Assembly (NCBI GenBank): GCA_002731275.1
Contig: PCBK01000111.1
Coordinates: forward strand, 1-34,183
Source: Deltaproteobacteria bacterium
Lineage (GTDB): Bacteria; Myxococcota_C; UBA6777
Length of the DNA: 34,183 nt
Reading direction: 5' to 3'
A program made the translations under genes and the position numbers. The notes beneath the pieces are model-generated. The model was not told where the DNA came from. It saw only the letters and a program-made list of their open reading frames with translations, and searched no databases. Below, in pieces: positions 25,527 to 34,183 of this stretch (within the stretch, counting starts at the first letter, position 1; each line of letters begins with the position of its first letter).

Positions 25527-26891
25527 CTAGGAGAGGAGGTACATGGACCATTGGATGAGCTGGAAGATACCAACACCGAAGACGATTAGACCGAGGCAGA
25601 AGAGGACGACACCGAAGATGCGATGGTTATCGAGATAGTGTCCATATTCATGTGCGCCACGTTTGAGGAGGGTGGAGGGGCAATGGACACAGATCTTGCC
25701 TTCGAGATTGGATTGAAGCAGATGAAGCATCTCATCGACACTTTGGTAACGCTCGTCGGGGTTCTTCTTCATGCCTTTGCGCAAAAAGAAGCAGATCTCA
25801 CGAGGCACTGCGCCCTGGTGCTCGTTCTTGATATTCTCCGAATCGATAGGATCTTCGGTGATAATCCCAAATAACATCTCTTGCAGTGTGTTTTTGTGCT
25901 CAAGATAATGTCGAAGGTTGACGAATTCATAGAAGAGGGCAGTCAAGCTGTAGACATCGCTGCGTTCATCGAGCTCTTTGCCGAGCGCTTGTTCGGGGGA
26001 CATATAAGCCGGTGTGCCGACAATGTCGCCTGTTTGGGTCTCAAACGCTCTTTGGTTCCAGTCTTGACCGAGCTCGGCCTGCATCCTTTGTACAATTTCA
26101 CTCTCAACACTGAGGAACTTCTCGCGTGTTTCGGGGACATCACGAATACGTTTGGCGATCCCCCAGTCCATCACCTGCACCTCACCGTATTCACCGATCA
26201 TGATATTTTCGGGCTTGATATCACGGTGGATATAACCGGCTTCGTGGGCAAACTTGATAGCGTAGAGGATCTCAACGAAGAGTTGTGTGCGTCGCTCAAA
26301 AGAGAAGCGTTTGGTGTACTCGGGGTCACCATCTCGGAGCTTTTGAATGATATCACCGAGCGTTTGGCCTTGTACGTACTTCATGGTGAAGTAGTAATTG
26401 CCTTCCTCATCGAGCCCAACATCATGAAGAGGGACGATATTGGGGTGTTCGAGACGACCAACGGTCTGGACTTCTTCGGCGAAGCGTAGGAGACTCGCGG
26501 GGGCTTGTTGGTCTTCTCGGATACGCTTCATGGCGACCATACGTCGAATATCATTGTCCTTGACGAGGACAACCTCTCCAGCACCACCTTCCCCTAATTT
26601 GCGGAGCGCTTCATAGCGTTCTTTGTTGTCGATGGTGAGCTCGTGGTTATCTTCATCTTTCGCACGAGGGAGAATCGTGACGCTCCTGGAGGAACCTGTC
26701 GTGCGAAGGCCAGGCCCCATCGTGGCCTCTCCAGAGCTGGAGTCGTGGGGAGCGATTTTGAGGGAGCGGGTGCGTCTTTGTGTGAGTATACCATCCGCTT
26801 GTTTGGGGGGGGACGTTTCGAGGATGGTGGGGCCGAACAGATCTTCCTCGCTCAATGGGGGGAGGTCATTGGGATTCTCAATATGTGCCAT
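25527..26891 (-). CDS. Hanks-type Ser/Thr protein kinase with C-terminal membrane anchor
   Basis: A 454-residue kinase. An unstructured N-terminus (about 1-90) precedes the kinase domain with Gly-loop GEGGAGEVV, catalytic Lys122 (AMKR), HRD motif IHRDIKPENIM with Asp224, DWG in place of DFG (Asp242, VMDWGIAK) and SPE in place of APE (GTPAYMSPEQ). A long insert follows DWG before the activation segment. One membrane helix lies near the C-terminus (about 425-450), so the kinase faces the cytoplasm with almost nothing outside. The ATG at 26889-26891 follows AGAGAGGTAGAATC and is preferred over upstream in-frame starts. It is divergent from a second kinase, with a 296-bp shared promoter region. 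Confidence 0.93.
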   Translation of the reverse strand: MAHIENPNDLPPLSEEDLFGPTILETSPPKQADGILTQRRTRSLKIAPHDSSSGEATMGPGLRTTGSSRSVTILPRAKDEDNHELTIDNKERYEALRKLGEGGAGEVVLVKDNDIRRMVAMKRIREDQQAPASLLRFAEEVQTVGRLEHPNIVPLHDVGLDEEGNYYFTMKYVQGQTLGDIIQKLRDGDPEYTKRFSFERRTQLFVEILYAIKFAHEAGYIHRDIKPENIMIGEYGEVQVMDWGIAKRIRDVPETREKFLSVESEIVQRMQAELGQDWNQRAFETQTGDIVGTPAYMSPEQALGKELDERSDVYSLTALFYEFVNLRHYLEHKNTLQEMLFGIITEDPIDSENIKNEHQGAVPREICFFLRKGMKKNPDERYQSVDEMLHLLQSNLEGKICVHCPSTLLKRGAHEYGHYLDNHRIFGVVLFCLGLIVFGVGIFQLIQWSMYLLS

Positions 26892-27187
26892 GATTCTACC
26901 TCTCTTACTCACCACTTTGTGTTGATTCATTTTGGACGATGCCTTCGCCAAAATATGCCTGCCTCGGAATTGTATACCAATACGCTAGGGATTGGAACAA
27001 TAGATTTCAAAAAAATGGTCGCTTTTTCTTCCTTCTTCCAAGGTATTTGCTTTACGAACTTGGAGACTTCATTGGATGTCTCTTTTGGTGTGGATTTTTT
27101 TCAAAATGCTTTTCAAATCGATCGAGAGTCGATACAAAGAGGGGCAAAAGAATTTGGAATGGACGAAGCTTGGAGCATTGAAAGAGC

Positions 27188-29137
27188 ATGACGAAGGGAT
27201 CAAAGAGTATCAACGAAGCGATGGTGGAGACTTGGCACGCGATGCAGGAAAAGTGCTCCATTCACTCGACGATACGACATGATGAATCGGATGTTTCTGT
27301 GATAGAGAAGACGATCGCGCTTCCCAAGATCGCGCTCGCTCCGCATATATCGATCGACATCGCCGATGAAGAGACGGATTTGTCGCTCGGAGAGACCTTA
27401 GGAGAAGGGGGAATGGGTCGAGTATATCGCGCCCAACAACACTCCCTTCGCCGCGATGTCGTGGCCAAAGTCCCACTCTCCGAAGATTCCATGCTCAAAA
27501 AACGTCTCCTGCAAGAATCTTGGGTGATGGGGCGGTTGGAACATCCCAACATTGTACCCATTTATCAGCTCGGTGAGAACGAAGGTCGACCGATGTTGAT
27601 CATGAAGTATATCGAGGGCATTGAGTGGTCCGAGCTGCTTCACAAGGAGGCGACCCCACCACCTTTCCTCGAAGATGTTGAGCTCTCGATCGATTGGCAC
27701 ATTCGCACGCTGATCCAAGTCTGCCACGCGCTTGAATACGCCCACAGTCGCGACATCATACACAGAGATCTCAAGCCCGAAAACATCATGCTCGGCCCAT
27801 TTGGCGAGGTATACATACTGGATTGGGGTGTGGCCGTGAGTCTTCGAGACGAAGATAAGGGGTTTATCCCTCTCGCGTCGGAGCTTCGTTCGATCTCCGG
27901 GACACCGACATACATGGCACCTGAGATGCTCCTCTATGAAGAGATGCCAACGGATGCACGGACAGATGTGTACTTACTCGGTGCCATTTTGTACAGGATT
28001 GTGATGGGTGTGCCTCCTCACTTTGGGCACGAACTCCCACAGATCTTCATGAAGATCATCAACGACGCGACACGCGAATATACAGAAGACATTCCCAAAC
28101 ATCTCGTCGATATTTGTGAGCGCGCGATGGCGTTCGCTCCAGAGGAACGCTTTGCTTCTGTCAAGGATGTGCGAAAGGCATTACAAGATTACCTACAGTT
28201 TCGGGATTCTCGTAGATTGAGTGAGCGTGCGAGTAAAGGCCTCACGCAGCTCAAACGCCACCGTGCAGGAAGAAACAATCCTGAACTTACGATACTTTCG
28301 TTTGATCTGCATGAGGTCTTTATCCAGAGTCGCTTTGGGTTCCAGCAAGCGTTGGAGATCTGGCCTGAAAATACAGAGGCGCAGGAGGGTTTACAGGAGC
28401 TTCTTCAGGAGATGTTTTGGATTGAGCTTTCACACGATGAGCTGAAGGCAGCTGCGCGTATATTGTCGGAGTTGGAAGAGAGTCCGGCGACATTGGTGGA
28501 GGCATTTGAGAAGAAGAAGCAGCAGCTCGCGCAAAGAGACGAAGAGGTCGAAGCCCTCAAGCAATTGGCGTTCGAGAAGAGTTTTCACGTGGGAGCAAAG
28601 GGGCGTCGTGTTGGAGCGCTTTCGCTGGCTATTTTGTGGGGTTTGGGACCCCTGCTTGTGTGGATCTTTGAACGCATCTGGCAGCGTGAGTTTTTGGGGC
28701 ATGTCCATGTCTTTGCGATCAACGCGAGTTTTGGTTTGTTCTTGGCGGCGGCGTTTTATCTTGGTCGCAACTCGATGCTCAAGAACCAAGCGGGACGACA
28801 GCTCGCGAAGTTGTTGGTGGTGTTGTTTTTGGCGTTCCCATTGCAGCGTATTGGTTTAATGGTGATGGGGATCGCGTTCAGGCAAACGATTATCATTGAA
28901 TACACGATCTTTTCGTTATTTTTGGCGATCCTCTCTATCTTCATCGATCCGCGAATGTGGTATGCGGCGTTGTTGTATGTGGGAGCGTTCTTTCTCTCGA
29001 TTGTGTGGCCCGTCCATATCTTTTTGATCGCCGGGGTTGTTCATCTCTTTTCGATGTTAATCGTCGCGTGGTCTTGGGGCCCCAACCTCTTTCTGGATCA
29101 AAAATTCCTCTCACACATCGCAAAACAACAACATTGA
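27188..29137 (+). CDS. Hanks-type Ser/Thr protein kinase with polytopic C-terminal domain
   Basis: A 649-residue protein. The kinase domain (about 66-345) has GEGGMGRVY, catalytic Lys94, IHRDLKPENIM with Asp194, DWG in place of DFG (Asp212, ILDWGVAV) and APE (GTPTYMAPE). A helical region of about 120 residues follows, including a coiled coil (about 430-470). The C-terminal 170 residues hold about five or six membrane helices (LSLAILWGLGPLLVWIF, INASFGLFLAAAFYL, LVVLFLAFPLQRI, YTIFSLFLAILSIFI, LLYVGAFFLSIVWPV). The ribosome site before 27188 is weak, so a start at a later ATG (27221 or 27242) is possible. The gene runs toward the CRISPR array; the array is probably transcribed toward it. Confidence 0.92.
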   Translation: MTKGSKSINEAMVETWHAMQEKCSIHSTIRHDESDVSVIEKTIALPKIALAPHISIDIADEETDLSLGETLGEGGMGRVYRAQQHSLRRDVVAKVPLSEDSMLKKRLLQESWVMGRLEHPNIVPIYQLGENEGRPMLIMKYIEGIEWSELLHKEATPPPFLEDVELSIDWHIRTLIQVCHALEYAHSRDIIHRDLKPENIMLGPFGEVYILDWGVAVSLRDEDKGFIPLASELRSISGTPTYMAPEMLLYEEMPTDARTDVYLLGAILYRIVMGVPPHFGHELPQIFMKIINDATREYTEDIPKHLVDICERAMAFAPEERFASVKDVRKALQDYLQFRDSRRLSERASKGLTQLKRHRAGRNNPELTILSFDLHEVFIQSRFGFQQALEIWPENTEAQEGLQELLQEMFWIELSHDELKAAARILSELEESPATLVEAFEKKKQQLAQRDEEVEALKQLAFEKSFHVGAKGRRVGALSLAILWGLGPLLVWIFERIWQREFLGHVHVFAINASFGLFLAAAFYLGRNSMLKNQAGRQLAKLLVVLFLAFPLQRIGLMVMGIAFRQTIIIEYTIFSLFLAILSIFIDPRMWYAALLYVGAFFLSIVWPVHIFLIAGVVHLFSMLIVAWSWGPNLFLDQKFLSHIAKQQH

Positions 29138-29146
29138 TCTTGTCCG

Positions 29147-29222
29147 ACCACTCTGCAGGGAGGCGATTTTCCACTCGCTATACCACCACACTACAGGGAG
29201 GCGATTTTCCACTCCCCATACT
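29147..29222. repeat. Two 38-bp tandem repeats after the kinase gene
   Basis: Two units (29147-29184 and 29185-29222) share CAGGGAGGCGATTTTCCACTC (positions 29156-29176 and 29194-29214), with two mismatches in the preceding 9 bases and a partly conserved 8-bp tail. They start 10 bp after the kinase stop and are non-coding. Confidence 0.8.
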
Positions 29223-29350: not shown

Positions 29351-32300
29351 ACTCCGATCTTCGTTGGAGCGACGATGAGGTGGGAAGGCGGGCAAAGTAG
29401 AGGGAAAGCACAGCCGGTGAACTGGTTTCAATCTCCGTTGGAGCGACGTTGGGGTAGGAGGGACAGCCCTATCCTGATGCTCGTCACGTTCGCGTTTATG
29501 TTTTAATCTCCGTTGGAGCGACGTTGGAGTGGGAAGCTGCCCGTGTTAAAGATCACCAAGTCTCCAAGCTGATCGTTTTAATCTCCGTTGGAGCGACGTT
29601 GGAGTGGGAAGTGGAGTGTGTCACCACCACGTACTTTGGCTTGGCGGTTTTAATCTCCGTTGGAGCGACGTTGGGGTGAGAAGCCAAAATACGAAAAGCA
29701 TCATCTACACCGTTCTTGTTTTAATCTCCATTGGAGCGACGTTGGGGTGGGAAGCCGATCCGGTGTCCAAACTCCCAAGCAAGTTGTTTTAATCTCCGTT
29801 GGAGCGACGTTGGGGTGGGAAGTCTCATAAAGCCCCGTGAGATCCATCTTCGTCACTGCGTTTTAATCTCCGTTGGAGCGACGTTGGGGTGGGAAGGCAG
29901 TTAGGGCGCAGCGGTCCCAGGCGATATCTGCTGTTTTAATCTCCATTGGAGCGACGTTGGGGTGGGAAGAAAAACATGTACTTAGCATTGTCAACAAAGT
30001 TTTCGTTTTAATCTCCGTTGGAGCGACGTTGGGGTGGGAAGACTACTCCTCTTGATGTGTAGTGGTTTGCTTTTGCTCATGTTTTAATCTCCGTTGGAGC
30101 GACGTTGGGGTGGGAAGCAAGGTAAGCGAGCACAATAGATGCAAAAAACTTCGCAGTTTTAATCTCCGTTGGAGCGACGTTGGGGTGGGAAGCACCGAAG
30201 CGCTGCCCAAGCATCTTGGCCCCATCCGTGTTTTAATCTCCGTTGGAGCGACGTTGGGGTGGGAAGGGCAGAGGATGATGGTGTGCGGTACCTCGAAAAA
30301 GATCGTTTTAATCTCCGTTGGAGCGACGTTGGGGTGGGAAGCTTGCAGAGGCTACGATCTCGATCACAAACTTCGTGTTTTAATCTCCGTTGGAGCGACG
30401 TTGGGGTGGGAAGTTCAGGAGCGTTTAGCCAAAACCGCACAAGTCCGTGTTTTAATCTCCGTTGGAGCGACGTTGGGGTGGGAAGGCCGGTGTGAAGGCC
30501 GCGCTTCGGGGATCATACAAAGTTTTAATCTCCGTTGGAGCGACGTTGGGGTGGGAAGAGCGAGACGCTGACCATCAACAACAGCGCGGACTTTGGGTTT
30601 TAATCTCCGTTGGAGCGACGTTGGGGTGGGAAGACCATTTCTCTGTCCTGAGAAGGATGCCCCCCTTGGGGTTTTAATCTCCGTTGGAGCGACGTTGGGG
30701 TGGGAAGCTGGCAGCGCCTCACCAAAGTAGCGGAGGATCGTTTTAATCTCCGTTGGAGCAACGTTGGGGTGGGAAGTCGAAGGCGACAACTGGAACCAAG
30801 GCGGTTATAGTCTTGTTTTAATCTCCGTTGGAGCGACGTTGGGGTGGGAAGTATCGGGGGGTGGGGTGGTTACGATCTCCAGCGCGTGTTTTAATCTCCG
30901 TTGGAGCGACGTTGGGGTGGGAAGGCGAATTAAAGGCCGTTCTTCCGCCGACTGGACCGCGTTTTAATCTCCGTTGGAGCGACGTTGGGGTGGGAAGACC
31001 TAAGAACGTTGTACGGGCTGTGATCTGGTGGTGGTTTTAATCTCCGTTGGAGCGACGTTGGGGTGGGAAGCGGCATGAAAAAAGACATGCACTCACCTTT
31101 TGAGGTTTTAATCTCCGTTGGAGCGACGTTGGGGTGGGAAGTCCGCTTTTCCAACCCCCCCGGTATTCGGGGGGGTTGTTGTTTTAACCTCCGTTGGAGC
31201 GACGTTGGGGTGGGAAGAACGCCTACTGTTATCGCATACATTCGAAATAATGAATGTTTTAATCTCCGTTGGAGCGACGTTGGGGTGGGAAGCGTATTCT
31301 CGACACCTTTTCCCGTTCCTGCACCGTTGTTTTAATCTCCGTTGGAGCGACGTTGGGGTGGGAAGACCGCTTTGAAAGTTGCTTCAACCTTGCGCACTGG
31401 TGTTGTTTTAATCTCCGTTGGAGCGACGTTGGGGTGGGAAGAAGAATCACATCGGCATTAAGGTCTGGCGACCTGATGTTTTAATCTCCGTTGGAGCGAC
31501 GTTGGGGTGGGAAGACGGCAACAGCGGAACCACTAGAGGCTCCGCGTGATATGTTTTAATCTCCGTTGGAGCGACGTTGGGGTGGGAAGCTTGATGATGG
31601 TCCAATCAGCCCGATATCCGGGCCTGTTTTAATCTCCGTTGGAGCGACGTTGGGGTGGGAAGGAAGGTTTCTGGCATACCTGCCAGGACTCGCTCGACAT
31701 CCCACTGAGGAGTTTTAATCTCCGTTGGAGCGACGTTGGGGTGGGAAGCTTGCGTAGTTCTTTGATGGTGGTGCCATCATGTTCGATGTTTTAATCTCCG
31801 TTGGAGCGACGTTGGGGTGGGAAGTCGTTGGGTGTTGACCACTAACCACATATCGAGGTGTTTTAATCTCCGTTGGAGCGACGTTGGGGTGGGAAGACCG
31901 ACGAATTTAACCCAGTCGTCACAACATAAAGGTTTTAATCTCCGTTGGAGCGACGTTGGGGTGGGAAGACTTCGGAAGTTTCCATGCCGGGGAAGAAAAA
32001 CGCGTTTTAATCTCCGTTGGAGCGACGTTGGGGTGGGAAGTCTATGTTGAGCGCGATGATACGCGATCCGCGACATGTTTTAATCTCCGTTGGAGCGACG
32101 TTGGGGTGGGAAGAAAATCACAGGTATCAACACGATCGCCAAGGCTCTGTTTTAATCTCCGTTGGAGCGACGTTGGGGTGGGAAGGTAGGTGCGGTAAGT
32201 GGTATCAGCCTTACTATGAGGTTTTAATCTCCGTTGGAGCGACGTTGGGGTGGGAAGTCAAATCATACCCAAAGCCCTCGATCGCGTTCTCATAGTTTTA

Positions 32301-34183
32301 ATCTCCGTTGGAGCGACGTTGGGGTGGGAAGTCCTTGGTGCGCGAAGACTCTTTGGTGATTCCCGAATCAGTTTTAATCTCCGTTGGAGCGACGTTGGGG
32401 TGGGAAGGACGCATCGAAGGAGGCAGCTGAGGCGCCTGCCGTGTGGTTTTAATCTCCGTTGGAGCGACGTTGGGGTGGGAAGCAGGGAATCCAAATCAAT
32501 CGCAATTCCATCTTCTTTCACCGTTTTAATCTCCGTTGGAGCGACGTTGGGGTGGGAAGCCCTTCAGGTCCGATGATTGGTGTGTATGCTCGAACCGTTT
32601 TAATCTCCGTTGGAGCGACGTTGGGGTGGGAAGAAAGCAATGTCAACAAACGAAAAACCATGTGTGTTTTAATCTCCGTTGGAGCGACGTTGGGGTGGGA
32701 AGCAACTTTGTCATCGAACTGTCGTCGCTCTATGTGTATGTTTTAATCTCCGTTGGAGCGACGTTGGGGTGGGAAGCTCAGTGATACCACCAATTACCAG
32801 AAAAGGGCAACCAGTTTTAATCTCCGTTGGAGCGACGTTGGGGTGGGAAGTGAGTGTCGAGATCCCTCGCATCGAGGTAAAGAGCGGAGTTTTAATCTCC
32901 GTTGGAGCGACGTTGGGGTGGGAAGTCGTGATCGGCGCACATCAAGCGACCAACCCCCTCTATGCTGTTTTAATCTCCGTTGGAGCGACGTTGGGGTGGG
33001 AAGTCGAGGAGCCGGGGGGAGACCCCGGCTATGTCGATGTTTTAATCTCCGTTGGAGCGACGTTGGGGTGGGAAGATCTGGCTGTCGATCCTTGGCCGGC
33101 TCCAATCAAAGCAGTTTTAATCTCCGTTGGAGCGACGTTGGGGTGGGAAGTCCTTGGTAGTGGAAAAGTGAGACCATTTCACTACTTGTGTTTTAATCTC
33201 CGTTGGAGCGACGTTGGGGTGGGAAGCAGAAGCCCAATCCGGTGCCCAAACTCCCAAGCGAGCTGTTTTAATCTCCGTTGGAGCGACGTTGGGGTGGGAA
33301 GTTACGTTCAATCCGAACGTGGCCAAGGTGTTGCTTGCAGTTTTAATCTCCGTTGGAGCGACGTTGGGGTGGGAAGACCAGCGCAGACAAACGCGCGCCG
33401 GGGTCGTGACCAATATTGTTTTAATCTCCGTTGGAGCGACGTTGGGGTGGGAAGAAAGAGCGCTTCGACGTGGGCGTCGATTCTGTCGAGATATGTTTTA
33501 ATCTCCGTTGGAGCGACGTTGGGGTAGGAAGCTCGAAGATTCTTCCAAGCGTCTTCCACTGACTCAAGAAGAGTTTTAATCTCCGTTGGAGCGACGTTGG
33601 GGTGGGAAGCTATGTTTTTCGCCACCCTAGCACGCTGGCAGAAGTTTTAATCTCCGTTGGAGCGACGTTGGGGTGGGAAGTTCACCCCCTACAAGCGCAC
33701 GGGCAAGATTTTGGGTTTTAATCTCCGTTGGAGCGACGTTGGGGTGGGAAGTCGCTGACTGGTTGGCCTGCGAACATGGCGTCTTCAAGAGTGTTTTAAT
33801 CTCCGTTGGAGCGACGTTGGGGTGGGAAGCACGGTGTGTGTGCTTTCGCGTTGTACGACGTAAATGGTTTTAATCTCCGTTGGAGCGACGTTGGGGTGGG
33901 AAGATACAGGCGGGAGGTTCGTGGGGGAGGGTGTCGACCATGTTTTAATCTCCGTTGGAGCGACGTTGGGGTGGGAAGACGACACAATCATCTACCTGGT
34001 GCGGTTGAATCTGGTTTTAATCTCCGTTGGAGCGACGTTGGGGTGGGAAGCCCCTTTTGTTTGTCAGCTACAAAAAGGTGTGAAAGTGGAGTTTTAATCT
34101 CCGTTGGAGCGACGTTGGGGTGGGAAGTTCCAGAGCATCAACGACCTGAGACTTTTGGGCGTTTTAATCTCCGTTGGAGCGAC
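29351..34183 (-). CRISPR. Large CRISPR array, 65 complete repeats plus one truncated at the edge
   Basis: Repeats are 37 nt; on the plus strand they start GTTTTAATCTCC, contain GGAGCGACGTTG and end GGGTGGGAAG. I count 65 complete units (starts 29351, 29425, 29500 ... 34091) and a 23-nt partial one at 34161, at an average period of 74 nt. Spacers are 31-49 nt, mostly 34-41. The first unit has about 8 mismatches and the second 3. Units 3, 4, 5, 6, 9, 20, 26 and 57 have one each; nearly all others are perfect. Decay at the left marks the trailer end. On the minus strand the repeat ends ATTAAAAC, like a crRNA 5' handle, after a CTCC-AAC-GGAG hairpin. The array is therefore read right to left from a leader beyond the window. 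No cas gene is in view; type I or III is possible. Confidence 0.98.

Follow-up and report, generated by a model that had tools for sequence, protein, structure and literature searches.

In the type I-B CRISPR-Cas system of Haloferax volcanii, crRNA and target must pair at each of the first ten bases other than the sixth (PMC4390866). In Synechococcus hot-spring mats, virus variants found under one spacer against a lysozyme/lysin gene carry mainly silent or conservative changes (Heidelberg et al. 2009, PMC2612747), so that the kind of event described below is already known. Two operons related to the one analysed here, from Oscillatoriaceae M33_DOE_052 (L041) and Candidatus Binatia (L054), share its gene order, Cas8b-Cas7b-Cas5b-Cas3-Cas6-Cas1-Cas2, and possess 37-nt repeats ending ATTGAAAC as well as full-length Cas1. 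The locus presented here likewise features a 37-nt repeat, but its Cas1 is a fragment of 112 aa, and its array stores two widely separated spacers, A and B, that are closely similar over their common length and start at the same crRNA base. We consider it probable (about 0.83) that the same coding stretch was captured twice, from two diverged members of a single phage or plasmid family.

Results

The window, the whole stretch of 34,183 nucleotides that was analysed, forms contig C100 in an assembly of 10.75 Mb, and the contig end falls within the array. The trailer-side part of the latter occupies positions 29351-34183 (minus strand), is transcribed leftwards and is built on a 37-nt repeat that reads GTTTTAATCTCCGTTGGAGCGACGTTGGGGTGGGAAG on the plus strand; it comprises 64 complete spacers and one in common with a second contig (C79), into which the array runs on and whose end overlaps that of the window exactly over 96 nt. 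Across both contigs the full array amounts to 84 spacers, with a trailer end marked by degenerate repeats (29351-29536) and a leader located on C79, directly after cas2 and adjoining the cas operon.

Several features of the array and its surroundings stand apart from the spacer pair. One repeat near the leader (L009:17396-17432, on C79; CTTCCCACCCAACG...) is short of one C, the neighbouring repeats being perfect. The spacer at 31663-31711 measures 49 nt, and the other 83 only 31-41 nt. A further spacer, at 31142-31180, consists mostly of an 11-bp hairpin (CAACCCCCCCG...CGGGGGGGTTG, -24 kcal/mol), whose probable source is an intrinsic terminator in the invader and which would form inside the crRNA as well. 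Beside the trailer side of the array lie two divergent open reading frames, at 25527-26951 (minus strand) and 27188-29137 (plus strand), which from their HRDIKPENIM and HRDLKPENIM motifs look like Ser/Thr protein kinases, and between kinase gene and trailer two tandem 38-nt units (29147-29222) are 87% alike and differ from the CRISPR repeats of this array.

The operon on C79 encodes, in order, a WYL regulator, Cas8b, Cas7b, Cas5b, Cas3, Cas6, the Cas1 fragment and Cas2. With PADLOC assignments for Cas8b (9e-121), Cas7b (6e-112), Cas5b (4e-78) and the Cas3 helicase, the system is type I-B, and the array is that of a I-B locus in that its leader lies beside the cas operon and homologous 37-nt repeats occur in ten related loci. 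A complete Cas1 and Cas2 adaptation module, although usual, was not found in the assembly, and the subtype is assigned from the effector genes. Cas7b proteins 49-59% identical to the one encoded here belong to 15 loci, spread over cyanobacteria, Binatia, Poribacteria and other groups. In ten of these loci the repeats end ATTGAAAC when followed along the cas operon, and those of this array end ATTAAAAC; the crRNA therefore reads the minus strand of the window, and the boundary common to spacers A and B is its 5' end. Repeat orientation and leader position agree in placing the handle at this common end.

Spacer A (29755-29785, minus strand; 31 nt; crRNA AACTTGCTTGGGAGTTTGGACACCGGATCGG) is the older of the two and lies on the trailer side, and spacer B (33227-33264, minus strand; 38 nt; crRNA AGCTCGCTTGGGAGTTTGGGCACCGGATTGGGCTTCTG) is newer and lies on the leader side. 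Counted from 0 at the trailer they are nos. 5 and 52, with 46 spacers between them. Aligned without gaps from their common right-hand end, they are identical at 27 of 31 positions, and the mismatches, at crRNA positions 2, 5, 20 and 29, are all transitions. The repeat that gives crRNA A its 5' handle (ATTAAAAC) occupies 29786-29822 and that of crRNA B 33265-33301 (both minus strand), placing the common boundary at 29785/29786 and 33264/33265, respectively. On the PAM-distal side, spacer A is followed by a repeat with one private substitution (29718-29754, minus strand) and spacer B by one of consensus sequence (33190-33226, minus strand); here the two spacers differ by 7 nt, at the end where spacer length varies throughout the array (31-49 nt). 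When recomputed, the coordinates, both lengths, the spacing of 47 units, the match and the boundary at the crRNA 5' end all came out as in the initial annotation. The latter had also placed the differences at positions 2 and 5 in the seed: the repeats of related loci confirm the crRNA strand on which this depends, and by analogy with the seed defined for Haloferax I-B both positions would fall within it.

The four differences do, as proposed, occupy a single codon phase, and both spacers can be read as LAWEFGHRI(G) in the crRNA frame and as PIRCPNSQAS in the plus-strand frame. The claim that they are synonymous on both strands is true of both peptides but amounts to one observation and not two, since differences in one phase are the third positions of one frame per strand. 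Moreover, third-position transitions are nearly always silent, and the informative part of the pattern is the phase in common together with the open frame. Four differences share one phase with P = 0.024, and four random substitutions left the peptide of some open frame unchanged in 3-7% of simulations. By itself the silent-site pattern is only moderately significant; it favours a protein-coding target and says neither which strand nor which gene is concerned.

Searches for the target covered viral, phage, plasmid and cellular sequences. Degenerate patterns for both reading frames found no target in IMG/VR, a peptide scan of GTDB representative genomes found none, neither the individual spacers nor the array stretch as a whole gave more than chance-level pieces in blastn against INPHARED phages and PLSDB plasmids, and a pattern search of the genome itself and of four relatives from its family recovered nothing beyond the two spacers themselves. 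With looser patterns, spacer A was matched at no more than 15-22 of 31 positions and spacer B at 16-25 of 38; these hits lay in frames that were short, unrelated or different, and were set aside as chance or as matches by design. A leader-side spacer matching Arthrobacter phages at 28 of 31 positions was dropped, as the match (E = 0.5) extends across the end of a gene. Just five genomes of the phylum are present in the collection, and its phages are thus poorly sampled.

Of the readings weighed, the one put forward in the initial annotation, in which diverged relatives each gave up a homologous site in separate captures, is the best supported, through the near-absence of change in the intervening repeats, the unrelated neighbours of the two spacers and their 7-nt difference in length. 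We propose that a type I-B array would have taken up the same coding stretch twice, 46 other acquisitions apart, the donors being two members of a single phage or plasmid family that had come to differ chiefly at silent sites of their DNA. On both occasions the acquisition machinery would have placed the crRNA 5' end at the identical base, while the distal cut fell 7 nt differently. An identical 5' boundary is what PAM-anchored capture gives, and it was presumably a PAM that set it here, in the initial annotation probably the same one both times; the target, for its part, is presumably a gene, and crRNA A would be expected to give little protection against the target of B, with which it mismatches at two seed positions (2 and 5).

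A single element with two diverged gene copies or repeated domains, such as tail-fibre repeats or paralogous transposases, would leave the same pattern of silent sites, and the phage, plasmid and viral collections searched yielded no source element that could speak for one origin or two. The 46 intervening acquisitions suggest separate encounters, although one recurring element is still compatible with them, and we regard a single source as unlikely.

The initial annotation further suggested that spacer B may answer seed escape. Under such a scenario, a sub-case of the two-capture explanation, B would have been acquired because the phage escaped A by seed mutation, possibly via priming by crRNA A. 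The placement of two of the four differences at seed positions, as well as that of B on the leader side, agrees with this sequence of events. However, the other two differences, at positions 20 and 29, lie outside the seed and bring no escape benefit, about four in ten third positions (~40%) differ where an escape mutant needs one change, and 46 spacers intervene. Primed capture, moreover, usually selects other protospacers of the same element. The suggestion is therefore unsupported and escape improbable; the differences are more simply read as a general divergence among members of the invader family. A related and rather improbable reading is that the site is an acquisition hotspot, where the adaptation machinery, or interference-driven priming by crRNA A on a target that it matches in part, repeatedly picks one protospacer from diverging invaders; if so, the array would hold an updated copy of one epitope.

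A mutated duplication within the array, which the initial annotation had set against its own reading, would account for the exact repeat boundary common to A and B. Yet only 3 of the 1739 bases that make up the 47 repeats between the two units are substituted (0.17%), as opposed to 4 in 31 (13%) in the spacers, and drift at the repeat rate would give at least 4 changes in 31 nt with P ~3e-7, or 2e-3 at a tenfold rate. Mutation within the array is thus insufficient, since the repeats have shared the DNA and the time span of the spacers and would be expected to have changed along with them. The spacers that flank A bear no relationship to those that flank B, which means that no segment was copied, and the 7-nt difference in length and the confinement of every change to one codon phase also speak against a later-mutated duplicate, which we hold to be very unlikely. 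Finally, a chance match between unrelated spacers is already refuted, as only ~2e-9 boundary-anchored pairs this good are expected among the spacers of the array, or ~2e-7 with every offset and both strands allowed. The A/B pair scores 19, against 3 for the second-best pair and at most 8 for shuffled spacers, and has no counterpart elsewhere among the 84 spacers. Ten related arrays, themselves partial, hold 312 spacers without a comparable pair; the resemblance of A and B is accordingly genuine and, judged against this small sample, uncommon.

Discussion

Preserved as an ordered record, spacers A and B belong to a system whose adaptation module appears incomplete. The cas1 open reading frame (L009:15833-16171, on C79 beside the array leader) encodes 112 aa, and its stop overlaps the start of cas2, which is intact. 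We aligned the fragment with the full-length Cas1 of six loci, namely five related I-B operons and one family relative. It spans Pfam Cas1 positions 59-162 of 283, keeping the catalytic glutamate of LLGFEG but missing half of the catalytic residues, and comprises neither the N-terminal domain nor the His/Asp half with its conserved LH and LDLMEEFRP motifs. The related operons in which cas1 is covered have full-length Cas1, split over two frames in L046, and no Cas1 besides the fragment was found in the assembly, which is 94.65% complete. The system may have lost the capacity to take up spacers, and the array is probably frozen, unless another Cas1 is encoded in the missing 5%; alternatively, an unusual minimal Cas1 may be in use. 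If Cas1 has been lost, we infer that the captures of A and B both predate the loss.

Two capture events, as we favour, would make the pair two time-separated versions of one target site and hence a small ordered sample of how an invader family diverged. The pair fixes one end of the protospacer and, together with the sequence of the invader, would reveal which PAM this bacterial branch of I-B systems uses and provide a natural experiment on how far the seed tolerates mismatches. For now it documents, neatly but in no exceptional way, that members of an invader family were met repeatedly: repeated capture of a related invader's site is a known kind of event, real but ordinary.

Compared with described systems, the locus resembles that of Haloferax volcanii (PMC4390866) in its I-B effector, and it is from there that a PAM, and a seed covering positions 1 to 10 without position 6, are known; in contrast, the operon analysed here belongs to a bacterial I-B branch, with a Cas7b 49-59% identical to those of its cyanobacterial, Binatia and Poribacteria relatives. 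With the hot-spring mats (Heidelberg et al. 2009, PMC2612747) it has in common peptide-preserving variation under one spacer. There, however, the variation was seen in viral reads, whereas here two variants are stored in one array and are known from the spacers alone.
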